64,000 nt of DNA. Source: Chloroflexota bacterium. GTDB taxonomy: Bacteria > Chloroflexota > Dehalococcoidia > Bin125. The stretch covers positions 1-64,000 of the forward strand of contig JAPPFB010000005.1 of NCBI GenBank assembly GCA_028875225.1. Direction: 5' to 3'. This document shows, piece after piece, positions 6,950 through 46,931 of the stretch (position 1 is the first letter of the stretch; the number at the start of each line of letters is the position of its first letter). The position numbers and the translations under genes were made by a program. A model generated the notes under the pieces. That model saw only the letters and a list, made by a program, of their open reading frames with translations. It ran no database searches and was not told the origin of the DNA.

Positions 6950-6994
6950 TCTCCCCCCGCTGCGCGGGGGGAGATGCCGAAGGCAGAGCGGGGC
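6950..6994 (+). repeat. Two-hairpin repeat, class I copy A
   Basis: CTCCCCCCGC-TGC-GCGGGGGGAG forms a 10-bp hairpin, followed by a second short hairpin TGCC-GAA-GGCA and a G-rich tail GCGGGGC. The same sequence in the opposite orientation is at 38714-38759. It lies between tRNA-Ser and miaB and could act as a tRNA terminator, though it lacks a T-tract. Confidence 0.7.
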
Positions 6995-36465: not shown

Positions 36466-37260
36466 CTATTGGTACCGATTGAGAAACTCTATTGCGATCC
36501 TATTGAAATCGTCACACGCGCTGATGTTCACGGCGTGGGTTGCGGAGACACGCTCCACACGGAAATTGCCGGCGTGCTCCTCGACCCATTGGCGCGCCGC
36601 GGTGAACGCCTCTTCACGGTCGCCCGCGACCAGCAGCGTCTCGACCGGATTGGTTGGCAGCCGATGGCGAAGCGGCGTATGCGGCGAGGTGTACATCATG
36701 GTTCGGGCGATGCCTGTGGCGTTGCTGAGCAACATGGCGTCGTCGAAGCTGGCCCGCTGGGCATCGCTGAAGGCCCGCGCTCGGCGCGGATTGAGCGGAT
36801 GACGCATGACGGCGTCGATCCCGCCGTCAATCATCTGTTGCGCGCGTTCCCGTGCGGAGGCGGGGTTGCGAATGCGGTCGAGCTCGCCAAAGGCCGAGTG
36901 GGAATTGGTCACGACGTGGGCGATCACTTCGTCCGGGCGCGACATGGCATAGTTGAGCGTCAGCGCCGCTCCCAGGGATTGGCCCACCACGAACCATCGG
37001 TCGGCGTCAACCAGTTCGCGCAGCGCGCTGAACCGGTCGACATAGCGGTCGGGATGGTAGGCGGCTTCATCCTCGGGAGACGGCGACGCGCCGTGCCCGA
37101 GCAGATCGACCGTGATGCTCCTGAATCCGGCCTCGTGGAACGCGGGCAGGTTGAGCAGCCAGTGCGCGTGGCAGGTGAGAATTCCATGGACGAAGAGCAC
37201 CGGCCGACCATCGACCGGCCCATCAATGACGTAGTTGAGGTCGATTTCGGGCGGCGTCAC
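36466..37260 (-). CDS. Alpha/beta hydrolase
   Basis: A 264-aa cytoplasmic alpha/beta hydrolase: oxyanion region FVHGILTCHAHW, nucleophile elbow VGQSLGAA, and SATHAVN near the C-terminus supplying the catalytic His. GTG start 37260. It lies between the di-iron gene pair and the antiporter on the same strand. Substrate unknown; C-C hydrolase or esterase activity is possible. Confidence 0.85.
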   Translation of the reverse strand: MTPPEIDLNYVIDGPVDGRPVLFVHGILTCHAHWLLNLPAFHEAGFRSITVDLLGHGASPSPEDEAAYHPDRYVDRFSALRELVDADRWFVVGQSLGAALTLNYAMSRPDEVIAHVVTNSHSAFGELDRIRNPASARERAQQMIDGGIDAVMRHPLNPRRARAFSDAQRASFDDAMLLSNATGIARTMMYTSPHTPLRHRLPTNPVETLLVAGDREEAFTAARQWVEEHAGNFRVERVSATHAVNISACDDFNRIAIEFLNRYQ

Positions 37261-37309: not shown

Positions 37310-38584
37310 CTAGTTCCGATCGGTCGCGGTCGTGCCGGCGGCAGCGCCTTCAGTCAGCGCCTCGGGATTAAGCGCCTTGAGCAGCGGATCCTGGGTCACC
37401 AGCCCAAGGATGCTGGCCGTTTGACCGATGCGATCGAATCCGTGCTCGTGCAGGCGATGCAGGTAGTCGTGGTACTGCTTCTCGCGCAGCTTGCGCAGCG
37501 ATTCGACGCCGGCGTCCAGCCGCTCGACGCCGTCGGCGTAGAGCACGGCCAGTGCTTCACGCTCGAGCGGCGACTGGGCCAGTTCGGAGGAGAGTCCGCC
37601 CTCGGCCTTGATGAAGAAGATCGGCAGTTCGAGTTCGGCGCGCTCGGCGTAGCGGTTGTACCACTCAAGGTGCTTGAGGCCGTACTCGAGGTGCCGCTTG
37701 CTGTCTTCGGCCAGGCGAGCGAAGAGGTCGCGGTCAAAGTCGGAACGGGCCCAGTCGGTCGCGCACTCGAACGTGGTCAGCTCGTAGGACTTGTAAACCA
37801 CGTCGAGCGCGATGATCATGTCGGTGAACGTCAGCGCGTTGTACCAGCTCTCTGAGACATCCGAGAGCGGAGCCTTGCCGACGATGCCCTGGCCATGCAG
37901 CGCCCGCTTGCGCAGCGCCTCGACCTTGCGACCGGCGTCGTAGACCTGGGTCGCCAGGAAGAGCTTGACCTCGTGGAAGCCGTAGGAGATTTCCTCCAGC
38001 CACTTGGAGATGATCTTCTGCTCGGCGATGCCATAGGTGGAGTAGACGGCGCACAGCTGACCGGTCGCGCGCTCGACTTCGGGTGACAGTTCCTCGCGGT
38101 TCTCCCAGTCCAGGTCGGTCGCGGGAATCCAGCGGTCGCGAATCGCGTCTTCGTAGAGATCGGCAACGCCGTCGGCCCAGACCTCGGTGCGGTCGTAGAT
38201 CGCATACCCGGCGGGCATGTACATGCCGGGCACGGGTCGCGTCCCGCGGGGGAGGTCGTTGCGGTAGTTCCAGACGTCGGGCACGTGCCCGTAGGAACCG
38301 ATATCAACGTCGCTGAGACGCATCCCGTCCGCCGACGGCGTCGGCTTGAGTCCGGTCTCTCCGCCGTCCTCAAACATGATGAACTGCGCACCCGCGGAGG
38401 GATGATCCGGGTTCGACTCCATGAAGTCCAGCCACTTGGCGATCCGGTCTGGCTCGATCGACACGTTGAGGATGTTGTCGATTTGCTTGCCGGAGGCGGT
38501 GGACTGTTCGGCGCGTTCAATCAGTTCGGTGGACCAACCGCGCACCTGCGCGCGCATTTTCTGGGCGGGAGAGAGTGCCGGCAT
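37310..38584 (-). CDS. Ferritin-like protein, apparently lacking di-iron ligands (partner subunit)
   Basis: A 424-aa homologue of the neighbouring di-iron protein, sharing the WADGVADLYEDAIRDRWIPA block and FLATQV..DAGRKVEALRKR. Aligned to that protein, the first ExxH motif is changed (Glu161 to Ala217, His164 to Lys220) and the second has lost its Glu (Glu237 to Ser295) while keeping His298. It therefore probably cannot hold a di-iron centre and may act as a structural or docking subunit, as beta subunits do in bacterial multicomponent monooxygenases. ATG 38584 (MPALSPAQ) has AAAGGA upstream; the longer ORF translates the phased repeat array. Confidence 0.72.
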   Translation of the reverse strand: MPALSPAQKMRAQVRGWSTELIERAEQSTASGKQIDNILNVSIEPDRIAKWLDFMESNPDHPSAGAQFIMFEDGGETGLKPTPSADGMRLSDVDIGSYGHVPDVWNYRNDLPRGTRPVPGMYMPAGYAIYDRTEVWADGVADLYEDAIRDRWIPATDLDWENREELSPEVERATGQLCAVYSTYGIAEQKIISKWLEEISYGFHEVKLFLATQVYDAGRKVEALRKRALHGQGIVGKAPLSDVSESWYNALTFTDMIIALDVVYKSYELTTFECATDWARSDFDRDLFARLAEDSKRHLEYGLKHLEWYNRYAERAELELPIFFIKAEGGLSSELAQSPLEREALAVLYADGVERLDAGVESLRKLREKQYHDYLHRLHEHGFDRIGQTASILGLVTQDPLLKALNPEALTEGAAAGTTATDRN

Positions 38585-38623
38585 GAATTTCCAGTCCTTT
38601 GCGGGCGATCCGTGCGGATTCTT

Positions 38624-38700
38624 GCTCGAACCTGTTCGGTCTTGTTCGGTTTTGTGCGGCTGTTGTTCGAACCGGTTCGGTGTCGTGAGGACTGGTTCGA
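38624..38700 (-). repeat. 10-bp phased CCGAAC repeats between the two di-iron genes
   Basis: On the + strand GTTCGG-type hexamers begin at 38624, 38634, 38644, 38654, 38665, 38675 and 38695, i.e. CCGAAC on the coding strand at 10-bp spacing with one 11-bp step. Three are exact, the others differ at one or two bases. It matches in unit, phase and orientation the array upstream of sucD and ends ~40 bp before the start codon of the downstream gene. Confidence 0.7.
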
Positions 38701-38713
38701 TTGTGTGCGAGCC

Positions 38714-38759
38714 GCCCCCCTCTGCCTTTGGCATCTCCCCCCGCTTCGCGGGGGGAGAT
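38714..38759 (-). repeat. Two-hairpin repeat, class I copy B
   Basis: Read on the - strand: ATCTCCCCCCGC-GAA-GCGGGGGGAGAT (12-bp stem), then GCC-AAA-GGC, then a G-rich tail. Nearly identical to 6950-6994 apart from loop bases. It lies 8 bp after the catalytic di-iron gene and may attenuate read-through into the second gene. Confidence 0.75.
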
Positions 38760-38766
38760 GGGAAGG

Positions 38767-39801
38767 CTAGACCGTGATCAGTTCGCGCATGTCGGGCGAC
38801 ATGCGGTCGAGCCGGTCGCCGAGGCCGACCACCTGGAGGCGGTGGTAGTACTCGTTGATCTGCTTCTTGCGCATCAGCATGACGAGGTTGTAGCCCTCGT
38901 CGAGGTACTCGATGCCGCCGCCGGCGAGCACGGCCAGGGCCTCGCCGGTGATCGGGTTGGTGGTCAGGCCGGCCTGGGTGTTCTGCACGGTCTCGTTGAT
39001 GTCGAGGTAGTGGTGCAGTTCTTCCTTGCGCCAGGGCTGCGTCTCGACGGTGTACTTGGTGTGCGTGACGCCGAAGGCGAGGTGACGCGACTCGTCCTGG
39101 GCGGAGAGTCGGAACATGCGCTTCTCAGCCTCGTTCTGACCGATGAGTTCGCCCATGCGGAAGAGCGACTGGACGAGACCCTCGGCGAAGAGGTGGAGGA
39201 TCGCGGTCATCTCGGTGAAGTCGTCGATGGCAAGCAGGCCAACCGCGCCGAGGCCTGCCGGCGACATGCCGCCGCCGTTGACCAGGACACGCTTGCGGAA
39301 GACATCGAGGTGTCGGGCTTCGTCCATCAACTGGGTGCCGAGGAAGAGCTGGGACTCGAAGAAGTCGGGGTGGACCGACTCGAGGAAGCGGCCGGGCACA
39401 TCGCCGGCGATGAACTCGACCTGAGTCAGGAACGTGCACAGGGTGCACATCGCCTTCTCGATGTCGTCGGGCTGGTCGCCGATCGTGTCCCAGGGGATGT
39501 CGCGGGCCGAGGACCACTGGCGCTGGAGGGCCTCTTCGTAGAGCAACATGGCCGACTCGGACCAGACATCGCCCTTGTCACGGTACTGGCGGGCGTGGGC
39601 GTTGGAGCGCGGGTCGGCCTCGATGCCGCGCGGCGCAAACGAGCGCCAGTCGGCCTGGTCTACGCCTTCGACACCAGCCATTCGCTGGTTAATCGACTGC
39701 AGAGTGACACCCTTGCGGCCGGTCTTGATGTCGAACTCGTCGTCGGTTTCGAGGTTCAGCCAGTCCAGGTTGAGCCCTGGATTCTCAATCGCCGTGACCA
39801 T
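38767..39801 (-). CDS. Ferritin-like di-iron oxygenase (catalytic subunit)
   Basis: A 344-aa helical protein with a complete four-helix di-iron set: Glu129 (QVEFIAG), Glu161-x-x-His164 (DEARH), Glu207 (FAEGL) and Glu237-x-x-His240 (DESRH). This matches the R2-like/ferritin-like oxidase superfamily. The segment MLLYEEALQRQWSSARDIPW is shared with its degenerate neighbour. It lacks features that would mark it as the ribonucleotide reductase R2 itself. A role as an O2-dependent hydroxylase or N-oxygenase is inferred, substrate unknown. No reductase or ferredoxin gene is adjacent. Confidence 0.8.
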   Translation of the reverse strand: MVTAIENPGLNLDWLNLETDDEFDIKTGRKGVTLQSINQRMAGVEGVDQADWRSFAPRGIEADPRSNAHARQYRDKGDVWSESAMLLYEEALQRQWSSARDIPWDTIGDQPDDIEKAMCTLCTFLTQVEFIAGDVPGRFLESVHPDFFESQLFLGTQLMDEARHLDVFRKRVLVNGGGMSPAGLGAVGLLAIDDFTEMTAILHLFAEGLVQSLFRMGELIGQNEAEKRMFRLSAQDESRHLAFGVTHTKYTVETQPWRKEELHHYLDINETVQNTQAGLTTNPITGEALAVLAGGGIEYLDEGYNLVMLMRKKQINEYYHRLQVVGLGDRLDRMSPDMRELITV

Positions 39802-39972: not shown

Positions 39973-42171
39973 TTACTGCGCGCCAATCGGATCGAAGCTC
40001 GCCCTGAGAAAGTTGACCAGATCCCAACGCTCGTGGTCGGACAGTTGCGGCGACCACGCGGGCATCCCGGTGCCTCGGATGCCATCGGTGATCCAGGCGA
40101 ATAACACGCCGTCGGGGTGAAATGGCACGTGGACGGTGAAGTTGGCCGGCGGGGCCGGCAGCGAATCGGCCAGCGGCCCGTCGCCAGCGCCGGTCTCGCC
40201 GTGGCAGGAGGCGCAGTTGGCCGCGAACAGCACGGCGCCCTGTTCGACCGACTCTGCCGTCCGCTCGATGGGATTCTCCAACGTTCGGCCCGGCTCAACG
40301 TGCAGTCCGGTCAGCAAGACGACGGCCACGATCAGACCGAGGAGTCCGGCGACGAACGAAGCATCACCACCGCGTGGTCCCCAGCTGCGGCGAATGTGCG
40401 GTCGATTGAACCAGGCCAGACCGCCGAGCGTGAAGGCCCAGAGCGCCCCGACGCCGTTCCAGTCCATCTGGGTGAGGGGCAATCCCAGCGCGCCGCCGCT
40501 GTCGGTGGCGAAGGGAGACGCCTGATAACCCGATTCGACGTCGGTCCGAACGGCCATGAGCAAGTCGTCACCCGAAGCACGGCGCAACTCCATCTCGACC
40601 GTCCATTCGCCGGGCAGGCCGAAGTAGGCGCCTTCGAGCTGGAACTGACCGTCAGCAATCGGAGTGGTCGGCACGGTGACCGGTCCGACGCTGGGATCCT
40701 CGTAGCGGAAGCGCAACAGCAGCGCTTCCACGGGGTTCTCGTCGTCGCCGCGAATCGTTGCGGTCCAGGCGTTGAATCCGACCAGGTTGGGTGAGATCTC
40801 TAGCGAAACGACGATCTCCCCTCGAGCGACCGTCTCGACGACCGTATTGTCCTTCTGCTCGATCTCGGGTTGCGCGCTGGCCGGGGAGGGCAGCTGGGTG
40901 AGGATCGCGGACGCCGTGATGACGGCCAAGCCCAGCGCCGCCTCGATCCGCATCATGCGGCCGAAGCGGCGGACGAGCTGGTGATCGTGTCCGTCCGCCG
41001 CCACGTCGCGTGGCCGGAGGAAGAAGGCGTTGGCGCCGGCTGTTGCAAACAGGGCGACGAGGATCACCAACTTGACGATGAATGCGAGACCCCAGTCGGT
41101 TTCGACGATGCCGTTGACGTTCGGGATCTGCACCAGCGCGGAGAGCAATCCGGCCGCGACGAGGATGGGTACTGAGACGGCCGCCGCGATCGAGAATCGC
41201 CGCACCGATTCGATTCTCGCCTCGGTCCGCACTCGAATCGTGAGGATCAGGCTGATCAATCCGCCAATCCACAGCGCCACAGCCACCAGGTGCAGGGCGT
41301 CGAACAACGTTCCCCAGATCCAGCCGGAACCGATCGCGGCGCCGTGCGAAATCGCGGCGGTCGACGCCAACCAGGCAACGGCAAGCAGGGCGAGAACGGA
41401 AAGAGCCAACCGATCCGAAACGAACATGGGCCTGAGCAGTCGCACGCTGACCAAGAGTCCGGCGACGATCAGGGCGTACCAGCGTTGCTGCAGCCAGAGG
41501 CCGTTGCGGGTATCGAACAGGACGTCGCCGAGGAAGCCGATATCGCCCAGCCGCAATGCGCCGGCGATGGACTCGTAACCGGTTGCGGCGATGCCGACGA
41601 CCACCGTCCCTGCGATCAACGGCGTGAGCATCGTGATCGGTGACGGCCGGAGCAGGCATGAGATGAAGACGGCGCCGACGAACAGGACCAGCGCAGCCAA
41701 TCCGACGGCCTTGACCGCGGCGTCGGCGGACACGGGCGGACCGGGCCGGTCGAGGTCGATCTCGAACGCGCTGCCGGCAGGCGCCGATCCGTCGGGGTTC
41801 AGGACGGAGAACACGTACGAGCCGGTCCAGGTGTGCCCGTCTACCTCGGAGAGCGTCTCCCAGGCGACCGTGTAGACGCCGGGCTCCAGCTTGAGTGTGC
41901 GGACGCTCATCTGCGTCGGAACGGCGTCGGAGAACTCGGTCTCGCCGATGTCTCGGCGTTGTCCGGCGCTATCGAGGACCTGGACCGAGCTGTGGCTGCG
42001 CTGCAACTGCTCGGTCATGAACAGCGTGATCGTGGTTGGCGACTCGCGCAGCGAAGCGTTGATCGGCGGGTCGGCGCGCGCGAGCAGCGCGTGCGCGCTT
42101 GCCTCATCGGGCCAGAGGGCGACTCCGATGAGAGCCGCGAGGGCCAGCAACCCCGCGAGTATCCGTCTCAT
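39973..42171 (-). CDS. CopC-CopD-YtkA-cytochrome c fusion protein
   Basis: A 732-aa membrane protein. A signal peptide leads to a CopC domain whose mature N-terminus would be HALLARADPP (His1 is the Cu(II) ligand in CopC). Then come about eight CopD-type transmembrane helices, a YtkA/FixH-like beta domain (about residues 460-560), another helix or two, and a C-terminal class I cytochrome c domain with CASCHG and a distal Met in GTGMPAW. It should bind copper outside, move it through the membrane and sense or pass electrons. ATG 42171 overlaps the upstream stop (ATGA). Last gene of the copper operon. Confidence 0.88.
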   Translation of the reverse strand: MRRILAGLLALAALIGVALWPDEASAHALLARADPPINASLRESPTTITLFMTEQLQRSHSSVQVLDSAGQRRDIGETEFSDAVPTQMSVRTLKLEPGVYTVAWETLSEVDGHTWTGSYVFSVLNPDGSAPAGSAFEIDLDRPGPPVSADAAVKAVGLAALVLFVGAVFISCLLRPSPITMLTPLIAGTVVVGIAATGYESIAGALRLGDIGFLGDVLFDTRNGLWLQQRWYALIVAGLLVSVRLLRPMFVSDRLALSVLALLAVAWLASTAAISHGAAIGSGWIWGTLFDALHLVAVALWIGGLISLILTIRVRTEARIESVRRFSIAAAVSVPILVAAGLLSALVQIPNVNGIVETDWGLAFIVKLVILVALFATAGANAFFLRPRDVAADGHDHQLVRRFGRMMRIEAALGLAVITASAILTQLPSPASAQPEIEQKDNTVVETVARGEIVVSLEISPNLVGFNAWTATIRGDDENPVEALLLRFRYEDPSVGPVTVPTTPIADGQFQLEGAYFGLPGEWTVEMELRRASGDDLLMAVRTDVESGYQASPFATDSGGALGLPLTQMDWNGVGALWAFTLGGLAWFNRPHIRRSWGPRGGDASFVAGLLGLIVAVVLLTGLHVEPGRTLENPIERTAESVEQGAVLFAANCASCHGETGAGDGPLADSLPAPPANFTVHVPFHPDGVLFAWITDGIRGTGMPAWSPQLSDHERWDLVNFLRASFDPIGAQ

Positions 42172-43172
42172 TGCGAGGAGTCCGCGATGTCGTAGACCGA
42201 GTTTCGGACATCCTCCCACTCGGATTCGCTGACGCTGCCGATCCAGTCCAGGCTGCCGTGGAACTCGCCCGGTGCGATCGCAAAGGGCGGATCGGAGGGC
42301 GGATTGGCGACCAGATAGACGCCGAACGCGCCGAAGATCAGCACGTGACGGCCGTCGTCGGAGACCGCGAAGTCTGGCTGGTCTTCGCCAATCGCAGCCA
42401 GCTGGATCAGCTCGCCGGTTGTCAGGCTGAAGCTCCAGATGTCTTCAGGTCCGTTCAACCCGAGCGCGCGGCCGGACGCCTGGGGCAGGAACTGCCCAGC
42501 CGCGAAGACCACGGAGTCGCCATCGGCGGAGAACCGGGGAATGCGGAAGGGTCGTGGTTCCCATTTTCGTTCTGGATCGAGAACCTGTTCTGTATCGTCA
42601 TCCAAATCGCGGATCACGAGGTGAGGATCACCGCCATACGGTTCGTTGACGAACACGATGCGTGAACCGTCGGGCGAGATATCGGCGTCACGGGCATCCT
42701 CTCGCAGGACCTCGACCTCGCGCCGATCGAGGTGCAGACGAACGACGCGGATCATCAGTGATCCCGGTTCGTGGGTGAACATCAGAGATTCGCCGTCGGC
42801 CGTCCAGCGAGGGGTCCAGACGAACTCGGCTTGACGGGAGTGCTGGACCAGGATCTGTTGCCTGGGGTCGTCGATGTTGGCGATGGCCAGGTCGGTGCCG
42901 ATCGTGGCGTCGTCGGACTGGGTGAGCTGGAAGACGATGTAGGCCACCTGCGTGCCATCAGGTGAAATCGCCGGCTGCAGGAGTTGCTGGTCCTGCTCGG
43001 CTGCGAGCAGGAGCCGGGCGCCGTTCTCGTCCTGGATCCAAAGGTCGACGCCTGAGGTGAACACGAATGTGCCGGGCGCGGGGATCCGGCGCTCGGCCGG
43101 CTCAATCGCTCCTCCGCAGCCGACGACCAGGACGGCCAACGTTACGGCAGCCAGCGCGATGACCGTTCGCAT
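42168..43172 (-). CDS. TolB-like beta-propeller lipoprotein
   Basis: A 334-aa protein with a lipoprotein signal (LAVLVVGC) and at least four blades of WD40/TolB type, each with a PDG or ADG turn (AISPDGTQVAYI, RWTADGESLMF, ISPDGSRIVFV, RFSADGDSVVF). Extracytoplasmic and membrane-anchored. It starts 1 nt into the CopC stop (TGATG) and overlaps the CopCD fusion by 4 bp, so all are co-translated. Its role in copper handling is not known. Confidence 0.85.
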   Translation of the reverse strand: MRTVIALAAVTLAVLVVGCGGAIEPAERRIPAPGTFVFTSGVDLWIQDENGARLLLAAEQDQQLLQPAISPDGTQVAYIVFQLTQSDDATIGTDLAIANIDDPRQQILVQHSRQAEFVWTPRWTADGESLMFTHEPGSLMIRVVRLHLDRREVEVLREDARDADISPDGSRIVFVNEPYGGDPHLVIRDLDDDTEQVLDPERKWEPRPFRIPRFSADGDSVVFAAGQFLPQASGRALGLNGPEDIWSFSLTTGELIQLAAIGEDQPDFAVSDDGRHVLIFGAFGVYLVANPPSDPPFAIAPGEFHGSLDWIGSVSESEWEDVRNSVYDIADSSQ

Positions 43173-45056: not shown

Positions 45057-45962
45057 ATGGGAATGCTTGATGGCCGGGTGGCGATCGTCACCGGCGCGGG
45101 TCGTGGGATTGGCGCCGAAACGGCCAAGCTGTTCGCCTCCGAAGGCGCCAAAGTCGTGGTCAACGATCTCGGCGGCGCGGTCGACGGCTCCGGCGCGGCC
45201 GCTGCTCCGGCGGATGAAGTCGTGGCGGCGATCCGCGACGCGGGCGGCGAAGCGGTCGCCAACTACTCCTCAGTCGCCGACTACAACGCGGCCGAGGGCA
45301 TCGTCAAGGACGCGCTGGACAACTTCGGCGACCTCGACATCGTGGTCAACACCGCCGGCATCCTCCGCGACCGGATGGTCTTCAACATGACCGAGGCCGA
45401 GTGGGACGCCGTGCTCGACGTCCATCTCAAGGGTCACTTCAACCTGACCAAGTACGCCTCGATCCACTGGCGCTCTGAGCGCAAGGGCCACTACCGGCTG
45501 ATCAACTTCTCCTCGGTCTCCGGCATCTTCGGCGCGCCCGGCCAGCCCAACTACGCAGCGGCCAAGATGGGTATCGTCGGCTTCACTTACAGCTGCGCGA
45601 ACGCGCTGGGACGCTACGGCGCGACCGCCAATGCAATCTCGCCGGGCGCGTCAACTCGCATGACCGACACCGTGCCGGAAGAGCGACGTCGCGCAGGCAG
45701 CGACATCGGCGACTCCTCGGAAGAGGATCCACAGCGCTCACCGGCCAACGTCGCCGTGCCGCTGGTCTACATCGCGTCGGAGGAGTCGGACTGGCTGAAC
45801 GGTCAGATCGTTGGCGCATCGGGCTACGAGCTACAGCTCTTCAACAAGCCTGCCGTGATCCGCCAGGTGCGAGGCACCGAGCGCTGGACGACCGCGGGCG
45901 CAGCCCAGCAAATCGAAGAACTGTTCAAGCCGGCCGTCGGCGGCGGCGGCTTCTACGGTTAG
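45057..45962 (+). CDS. SDR-family dehydrogenase (tandem copy 1)
   Basis: A 301-aa SDR: VAIVTGAGRGIGAETAK, NDLGGAVDG (resembling the dehydrogenase part of multifunctional enzyme type 2), NTAGIL, NFSSVSG and YAAAK. It lies 63 bp before a paralogue of the same length. Probable 3-hydroxyacyl-CoA or related alcohol dehydrogenase; substrate inferred only from the motif. Confidence 0.88.
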   Translation: MGMLDGRVAIVTGAGRGIGAETAKLFASEGAKVVVNDLGGAVDGSGAAAAPADEVVAAIRDAGGEAVANYSSVADYNAAEGIVKDALDNFGDLDIVVNTAGILRDRMVFNMTEAEWDAVLDVHLKGHFNLTKYASIHWRSERKGHYRLINFSSVSGIFGAPGQPNYAAAKMGIVGFTYSCANALGRYGATANAISPGASTRMTDTVPEERRRAGSDIGDSSEEDPQRSPANVAVPLVYIASEESDWLNGQIVGASGYELQLFNKPAVIRQVRGTERWTTAGAAQQIEELFKPAVGGGGFYG

Positions 45963-46004
45963 CCCCCTCCGTCACTTCGTGACACCTCCCCCAGAGGGGG
46001 AGGT
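45962..46004 (-). repeat. Two-hairpin repeat, class II copy B
   Basis: Read on the - strand: ACCTCCCCC-TCT-GGGGGAGGT, GTCAC-GAA-GTGAC, GGAGGGGGC. Stem 1 and tail match copy A at 20278-20320 exactly; stem 2 differs at two pairs that change together. It fills most of the gap between the two SDR genes. Confidence 0.75.
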
Positions 46005-46025
46005 CCGGAACAAGGGAGAGACATC

Positions 46026-46931
46026 ATGGGAATGCTTGATAATCGCGTCGCGATCGTGACCGGCGCGGGACGCGGTATTGGCGCCGAGGTCTCCAAGCTG
46101 TTCGCCGCCAACGGCGCCAGCGTGGTCGTCAACGACCTCGGCGGCGCGGTCGACGGTACCGGCGGCGAATCCGGACCAGCCGACGAGACCGTCGCCACCA
46201 TCCGCGACGCCGGCGGCAACGCCGTCGCCAACTACACCTCAGTCGCCGACTACAACGGCGCGGAGGGCATCATCCAGCAGGCGCTGGACGAGTACGGCCG
46301 CCTCGACATTCTGGTCAATGTCGCCGGGAACCTGCGCGACCGGATGGTCTTCAACATGACCGAAGAGGAATGGGACGCGGTCGTCGCGGTGCACATGAAG
46401 GGCACCTTCAACACGACCAAGTACGCCTCGATCTACTGGCGCGCCAACCGCGAGGGTCATTACCGGCTGATCAACTTCACTTCTGGTTCCGGCCTGCACG
46501 GCGCTCCCGGACAGCCGAATTACGCCGCCGCGAAGCTGGGCATTGTCGGCTTCACTTATAGCTGCGCGAACGCGCTGGGACGCTACGGCGTGACTTCCAA
46601 CGCGATCGGCCCGGGCGCCTCGACGCGGATGACCGACACCGTGCCGACGGAGCGACGCTCGCGGGGCTTCGACGAGGATTCCGAGACCACCGTCGATCCG
46701 CGCCGCTCGCCGGCCAACGTCGCCGTGCCGATTGTCTATATCGCCTCCGAGGCTTCCGACTGGCTCAACGGCCAGGTGATCCAGGCCATGGGCTACGACA
46801 TCGGCCTCTACAACCAGTACGAGATCATCCGCAATCTCTCCAGCAACGAGGGCTGGAGCGTCGAGCGCGCAGCCGAGGAGATTGAGCGGGTCTTCAAGCC
46901 GGCGATCGAGGGCAGCCGCCTGTTCGGCTAA
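46026..46931 (+). CDS. SDR-family dehydrogenase (tandem copy 2)
   Basis: A 301-aa paralogue of the preceding gene, starting identically (MGMLD) and sharing NDLGGAVDG, NVAGNLRDRMVFNMTEEEWD and YAAAK. The segment before YAAAK reads NFTSGSG, so the catalytic Ser position is retained within a changed context. Differences cluster in the substrate loop after TRMTDTVP, suggesting divergence of specificity after duplication. Ribosome site AGGGAGAG. Confidence 0.88.
   Translation: MGMLDNRVAIVTGAGRGIGAEVSKLFAANGASVVVNDLGGAVDGTGGESGPADETVATIRDAGGNAVANYTSVADYNGAEGIIQQALDEYGRLDILVNVAGNLRDRMVFNMTEEEWDAVVAVHMKGTFNTTKYASIYWRANREGHYRLINFTSGSGLHGAPGQPNYAAAKLGIVGFTYSCANALGRYGVTSNAIGPGASTRMTDTVPTERRSRGFDEDSETTVDPRRSPANVAVPIVYIASEASDWLNGQVIQAMGYDIGLYNQYEIIRNLSSNEGWSVERAAEEIERVFKPAIEGSRLFG

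Follow-up and report, generated by a model that had tools for sequence, protein, structure and literature searches.

The window analyzed here, a 64,000-nucleotide stretch of a Chloroflexota genome, contains two neighboring genes on the minus strand that encode related proteins. Gene A (38767..39801) was recognized from its open reading frame and translation as encoding a ferritin-like (R2/R2lox-like) dimetal carboxylate protein of 344 aa. Gene B (37310..38584), a paralogue of A according to its open reading frame and translation, the ligand columns of an alignment, and a structural model, encodes 424 aa. A 474-aa form of B, from an ORF opening at 38734, was dropped in favor of the start at 38584, because the first residues of the longer form are a translation of the intergenic hairpin and the relatives of B match the 424-aa protein from its residue 1 onward. 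The genome spans 3.2 Mb with a completeness of 96%, the public genomes closest to it are Dehalococcoidia MAGs, and the organism is a marine, probably sponge-associated member of Chloroflexota.

The 182-nt gap between A and B (38585..38766, minus strand) holds a strong perfect hairpin, CATCTCCCCCCGC-GAA-GCGGGGGGAGATG, with a fold z of -3.2. The 13-base core, GGGGGGAGATGCC, of this GC-rich element (38690-38775) occurs again as an exact copy at 6966-6978, and ORFs in related loci start with the same translated hairpin sequence (MPKA...). Taken together, the second copy and these ORF starts suggest that the hairpin is possibly a dispersed repeat. An alpha/beta hydrolase gene (36466..37260, minus strand; Pfam Abhydrolase_1, 4.5e-18) lies 49 nt downstream of B. 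Within the same lineage, 15 loci have such a hydrolase at the +1 position; there is none beside the pair on contig C17 of the window's genome. Given that it is conserved beside one pair lineage only, we rejected it as a core component, and it probably stands outside the core A-B system. Directly upstream of A is a gene for a 748-aa CopC-CopD-cytochrome c fusion (39973-42219), also kept in the same lineage, and two closely similar 301-aa short-chain dehydrogenases are encoded in tandem at 45057-46931.

The product of gene A has what defines the ferritin-like dimetal carboxylate superfamily, namely a four-helix bundle that carries two more carboxylates besides a pair of ExxH motifs. In the ligand columns of the alignment, its six ligands are E129, E161, H164, E207, E237, and H240, and the initial annotation, which had reported a complete di-iron set in the 344-aa protein, was right as to coordinates, length, and residues. 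All six ligands (EEHEEH) are present in 40/40 dereplicated A-type sequences. A has no match of any kind in Pfam; its best NCBIfam match is a weak one to the R2lox model (PRK08326), at E 1e-7 and 31.5 bits where the cut-off is 194, and both of its ExxH motifs line up with their counterparts in an R2lox homologue of solved structure. By profile, the best sequence match in the PDB is VlmB/"Protein 60" (8wvr, 6d9f; E 4e-4). In the plasmid collection, a search with P0001 and C gave no match, and distant A-like queries gave only weak ferritin-like matches (in Xenorhabdus, Streptomyces, Rhodococcus, Pantoea, and Nonomuraea). Another Chloroflexota family has distant A-like ferritin-like proteins (L101:6629-7840, L102:1-996, and L099:9299-10714) with acyl-CoA dehydrogenase-like genes nearby; the first of these proteins shows a weak N-terminal TusA-like match together with an AurF match of 28.7 against a cut-off of 29.6.

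Protein B shares 27.5% identity with A across 284 aa, with a tblastn E of about 1e-28 among the loci searched; it has no significant Pfam family, a match to YcaO_C being below threshold. At the positions of A's ligands, B has G185, A217, K220, K265, S295, and H298. The homology and the substitutions Ala217, Lys220, and Ser295 had been pointed out previously and are confirmed by the alignment; they make up three of the five substituted sites, G185 and K265 having been missed. We compared these columns in an alignment of 120 relatives and in a dereplicated set of 40 A-type and 41 B-type sequences. Glu at 161, 207, and 237 is gone in all 41 B-type sequences, Asp taking its place in 2 of them at 161 and in 13 at 207, and E129 is retained in only one, with first-shell Glu otherwise absent from B. 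The resulting site strings differ among B subfamilies (GAKKSH, ALHDRM, AYHTLQ, QQHTLH, AAHGKH, NAHDKH, ADADKH, and others).

This loss does not extend to the surroundings of the site. Of the 29 positions that are invariant in the 40 A sequences, only four are retained in less than 10% of the 41 B sequences, and these are the four Glu ligands, which is beyond chance (hypergeometric p = 4e-5). In fact, D160/D216, D236/D294, R239/R297, and the RKR motif (R225-K226-R227 in B) are conserved in A and B alike. Since only the four Glu ligands have been lost and the neighboring residues kept, the alignments indicate that the loss in B is targeted at the first shell and is due neither to chance nor to decay. 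One may ask whether B has instead become a catalyst of another kind, using an altered cofactor or no metal at all, so that A and B would perform consecutive steps. The window's B subfamily does conserve a set of polar residues of its own close to the former site (E188, K190, K220, E268, and H298), which speaks for such a role, but these are not conserved across B subfamilies, and with first-shell Glu gone from B, apart from the one sequence mentioned, we regard a catalytic B as distinctly improbable. Residues 1-60 of B (P0002) form an extra N-terminal helical segment with no counterpart in gene A, and its pattern, "GWxxxLIxxAL", recurs in many B proteins, including that of locus L105, and in the solo A of locus L078. 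This segment is possibly a UBA-like docking domain.

AF2 models of A (pLDDT 73.7, pTM 0.76) and B (pLDDT 73.7, pTM 0.65) present the same R2-like helical core, formed by helices 112-140, 145-176, 195-215, and 224-254 in A and 168-194, 204-230, 253-273, and 282-312 in B. The fold neighbors reached through the model of A are VlmB and its homologue (Z 23), followed by R2lox and the cyanobacterial aldehyde-deformylating oxygenase (ADO), with Z of about 21; the superposition on VlmB/"Protein 60" has an rmsd of 2.5-2.6 over about 248 residues at 18% identity. For B, they are ADO, MMOH, and VlmB, with Z of about 20, and within MMOH the score is 20 to the alpha subunit and 18.5 to the beta subunit. 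The helix register of the models matches A's ligands to the B residues that the sequence alignment gives, and the structural comparison placed no intact ligands in B. Both models are of moderate confidence and were built on mixed A+B alignments of modest depth, so they support the ligand register without being an independent test of it.

Surveys for A, B, and a third protein, C, across Chloroflexota genomes reveal that A and B are not separated in most genomes. The window's genome has three A-B pairs (the window pair, one at C28:32.5 kb, and one at C17:297 kb), we counted 69 adjacent pairs from several families in a phylum-wide sample, all on the same strand with A first, and every complete locus found in the public genome collection reads A then B. 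The exceptions are splits in family f19, where A genes stand alone in three genomes, each of which carries B and C as a pair at another place. More generally, A lacks an adjacent B in several loci (L078, L081, L082, L084, L086, and others), so some A proteins may act alone or with a trans partner.

The 83-sequence tree unites all B proteins in a single clade (support 100/100) that is sister to core A, and on this evidence B stems from one old duplication common to many families. The distances among A proteins correlate with those among B proteins (Mantel r = 0.84, 0/5000 permutations), a correlation for which shared species history accounts in part; the nearest neighbor is identical in 18/25 cases, and genomes with multiple pairs retain A and B in pairs. 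Against close relatives, dN/dS ranges from 0.02 to 0.13 in A and from 0.04 to 0.23 in B, values that place B, too, under purifying selection. A simple tandem duplication whose second copy is decaying would also yield an adjacent paralogue with lost ligands if it were recent. This reading is already contradicted by the single ancient duplication across many families, by a B that is intact with the low dN/dS values just given, and by the restriction of losses among invariant residues to the ligands, and we give it almost no credence.

In addition, family f8 has an intact A-like gene followed by a ligand-less copy (QYHNTH and QYHNNH) that groups apart from the B clade (L093:9131-11573 and L154:8504-11020), with C next in both loci. 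This position in the tree implies that a dead partner evolved twice, independently. In the first of the two loci, genes for a thiolase and an OB-fold (DUF35-like) protein follow C.

These observations bear on whether A needs a partner at all. It could be a self-sufficient homodimeric oxidase similar to R2lox or VlmB, with B a co-expressed regulatory or chaperone-like pseudoenzyme outside the active complex. Solo A genes exist, the A of L078 is accompanied by C and a ferredoxin with no B, and R2lox and VlmB-type enzymes are not known to require a paralogous partner. Nevertheless, A and B have been paired over the long term and have co-diversified in adjacent genes, the genomes of f19 with solo A have a B-C pair elsewhere, and a ligand-less partner arose independently in a second lineage; we therefore consider a self-sufficient A unlikely. 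The initial annotation had likened the pair to the alpha and beta subunits of soluble multicomponent monooxygenases. That likeness gains from the conserved order and adjacency, from the fold that both models share, and from the history of B, which arose by a single ancient duplication, diversified along with A under purifying selection, and lost its ligands selectively; it loses from the members in which A and B are split.

It had also been stated that no coupling protein gene is adjacent to the pair, which holds for the window but not for other genomes, where C, a protein of about 150 aa, adjoins A-B and co-occurs with it genome-wide. The presence of this third component tracks A/B across the class. 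The window's genome has a single copy, unlinked to its A-B pairs (G000:C17:239157-239582; L129:8154-8585); elsewhere, in several families, C follows A-B (L087, L088, L091, L092, L093, L140-L145, L147, L157, L158, and others), either immediately or with an FmdB-like zinc ribbon between, and it also follows a solo A in L078 and a solo B in L103, L104, and L105. When we ran A and C profiles against 294 genomes of the class, A was found in 97, C in 96, and both in 93 (Fisher p about 1e-67, relatedness ignored), with A present without C in G403, G413, G421, and G525 and C without A in G404, G493, and G639. Likewise, in the phylum sample, a strong A match was accompanied by a strong C match in 16/16 genomes. 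C has no Pfam match of note, and none to the PaaB model at E <= 10; the single member scanned against NCBIfam had no match, and the PDB offered none below E 0.3. An SCP2-like lipid-carrier identity, suggested by its residue pattern, was unsupported; a search of the genomes of the family yielded no SCP2 protein. C is thus a candidate orphan family that merits its own study.

A dedicated reductase of the type used by bacterial multicomponent monooxygenases (BMMs) was sought in the window's genome and none was found, nor is any reductase linked to A-B. The only PF00175 match in this genome lies beside a carB-like ORF, and we take the protein to be a PyrK-like subunit. A 2x[4Fe-4S] ferredoxin gene follows A-C in L078, which has no B; in Rhodococcus, FdxA follows a distant ferritin-like relative; in L143 and L144, a P450 and a Rieske ferredoxin flank A-B-C; and the window's genome encodes Rieske proteins, one of them stand-alone. 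Given these neighbors and the genome's own Rieske proteins, a ferredoxin donor is plausible. At L143:3731-16308, one contig bears two complete A-B-C operons; genes for two P450s, a luciferase-like monooxygenase, an amidohydrolase, and a Rieske ferredoxin lie between these operons or next to them. Acyl-CoA enzymes and luciferase-like monooxygenases are frequent neighbors of A/B, but because such genes are common in these genomes, we draw no substrate from them. A separate AurF-family protein (PF11583), above the cut-off, is encoded at G000:C16:24416-24892.

On balance, we think it likely that A and B together form an undescribed heteromeric dimetal-carboxylate oxygenase or oxidase that activates O2 at a di-iron or Mn/Fe site, A being its catalytic and B its non-catalytic subunit, with a third small protein, C, encoded elsewhere in the genome. 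The arrangement that we infer comprises an A-B heteromer, a role for C, and an electron donor. In it, the dimetal site in the four-helix bundle of A would activate O2 and oxidize the substrate. B, with the same scaffold and the conserved neighbors D216, R225-K226-R227, D294, and R297, would be unable to bind such a site and would probably pack on A, by analogy with PaaC on PaaA, as a structural or docking pseudo-subunit that shapes the surface for the substrate or the redox partner. C would probably be a bridging, coupling, or substrate-delivery subunit, and since the genome has three A/B pairs and one C, the same C would probably serve several pairs. Electrons would probably come from a trans-encoded ferredoxin or Rieske ferredoxin. 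More tentatively, and with slightly more doubt than confidence, we propose that A/B/C may represent a previously unrecognized class of soluble multicomponent dimetal oxygenases with a catalytic A, a pseudo-subunit B born of one old duplication, and a shared, trans-acting C, in which the pairing of catalytic and dead copies evolved twice and which serves the oxidation of organic compounds in the class Dehalococcoidia.

Marine SAR202 bacteria and their relatives are thought to oxidize recalcitrant dissolved organic matter through expanded enzyme families. Ferritin-like and di-iron enzymes go unmentioned in the SAR202 pangenome paper that we searched. Should A/B/C prove to be an oxygenase, it would be an undescribed, paralogue-expanded oxidation system present in about a third of the sampled genomes of the class. 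The family also offers a natural experiment in pseudo-subunit evolution, in which the carboxylate ligands of the partner copy were lost twice and, in the B lineage, the remaining invariant scaffold was kept. We found no earlier description of A/B/C in the openly licensed literature, and subscription journals may hold one.

Among known systems, R2lox has a similar ligand set, with two ExxH motifs, and a related fold. In contrast, A scores well below the cut-off of the R2lox model, and the positions of the Val-Tyr ether cross-link, which we presume to be 132 and 202 by counting from the ligands as in R2lox, hold A (38) or P (2) and L, M, V, or T, respectively, in the 40 A sequences. R2lox is not known to have a ligand-less partner. 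VlmB azoxy synthase and "Protein 60" are the closest solved folds to A, but VlmB belongs to an azoxy natural-product pathway, a context not seen around A/B, and no pseudo-subunit has been described for it. Neither A nor B matches the AurF N-oxygenase family (PF11583). The BMM hydroxylases (MMOH and the toluene/phenol hydroxylases) likewise pair a catalytic with a ligand-less paralogue, alike in fold, as their alpha and beta subunits. They differ from A/B, which has no match to Phenol_Hydrox (PF02332) and no linked reductase; the window's genome has no PF02332 match and no MmoB_DmpM (PF02406) match at E <= 1. In phenylacetyl-CoA epoxidase, catalysis falls to PaaA, while PaaC, 17% identical and of the same fold, has a structural role and the small PaaB bridges the heterodimers (PMC4498308). 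However, neither A nor B matches the PaaA_PaaC Pfam model at E <= 1, the fourth ligand of PaaA is Asp126 where A has Glu, no PaaE-type reductase is linked to A/B, and C is unlinked in the window's genome. Thus, judged by these family models, the A/B system is not filed as BMM, PaaABCE, R2lox, or AurF. Its layout nevertheless resembles those of BMM and PaaABCE and, as far as the genes tell, recalls the PaaA/PaaC/PaaB combination of a catalytic ferritin-like subunit, a paralogue of the same fold, and a small third subunit.
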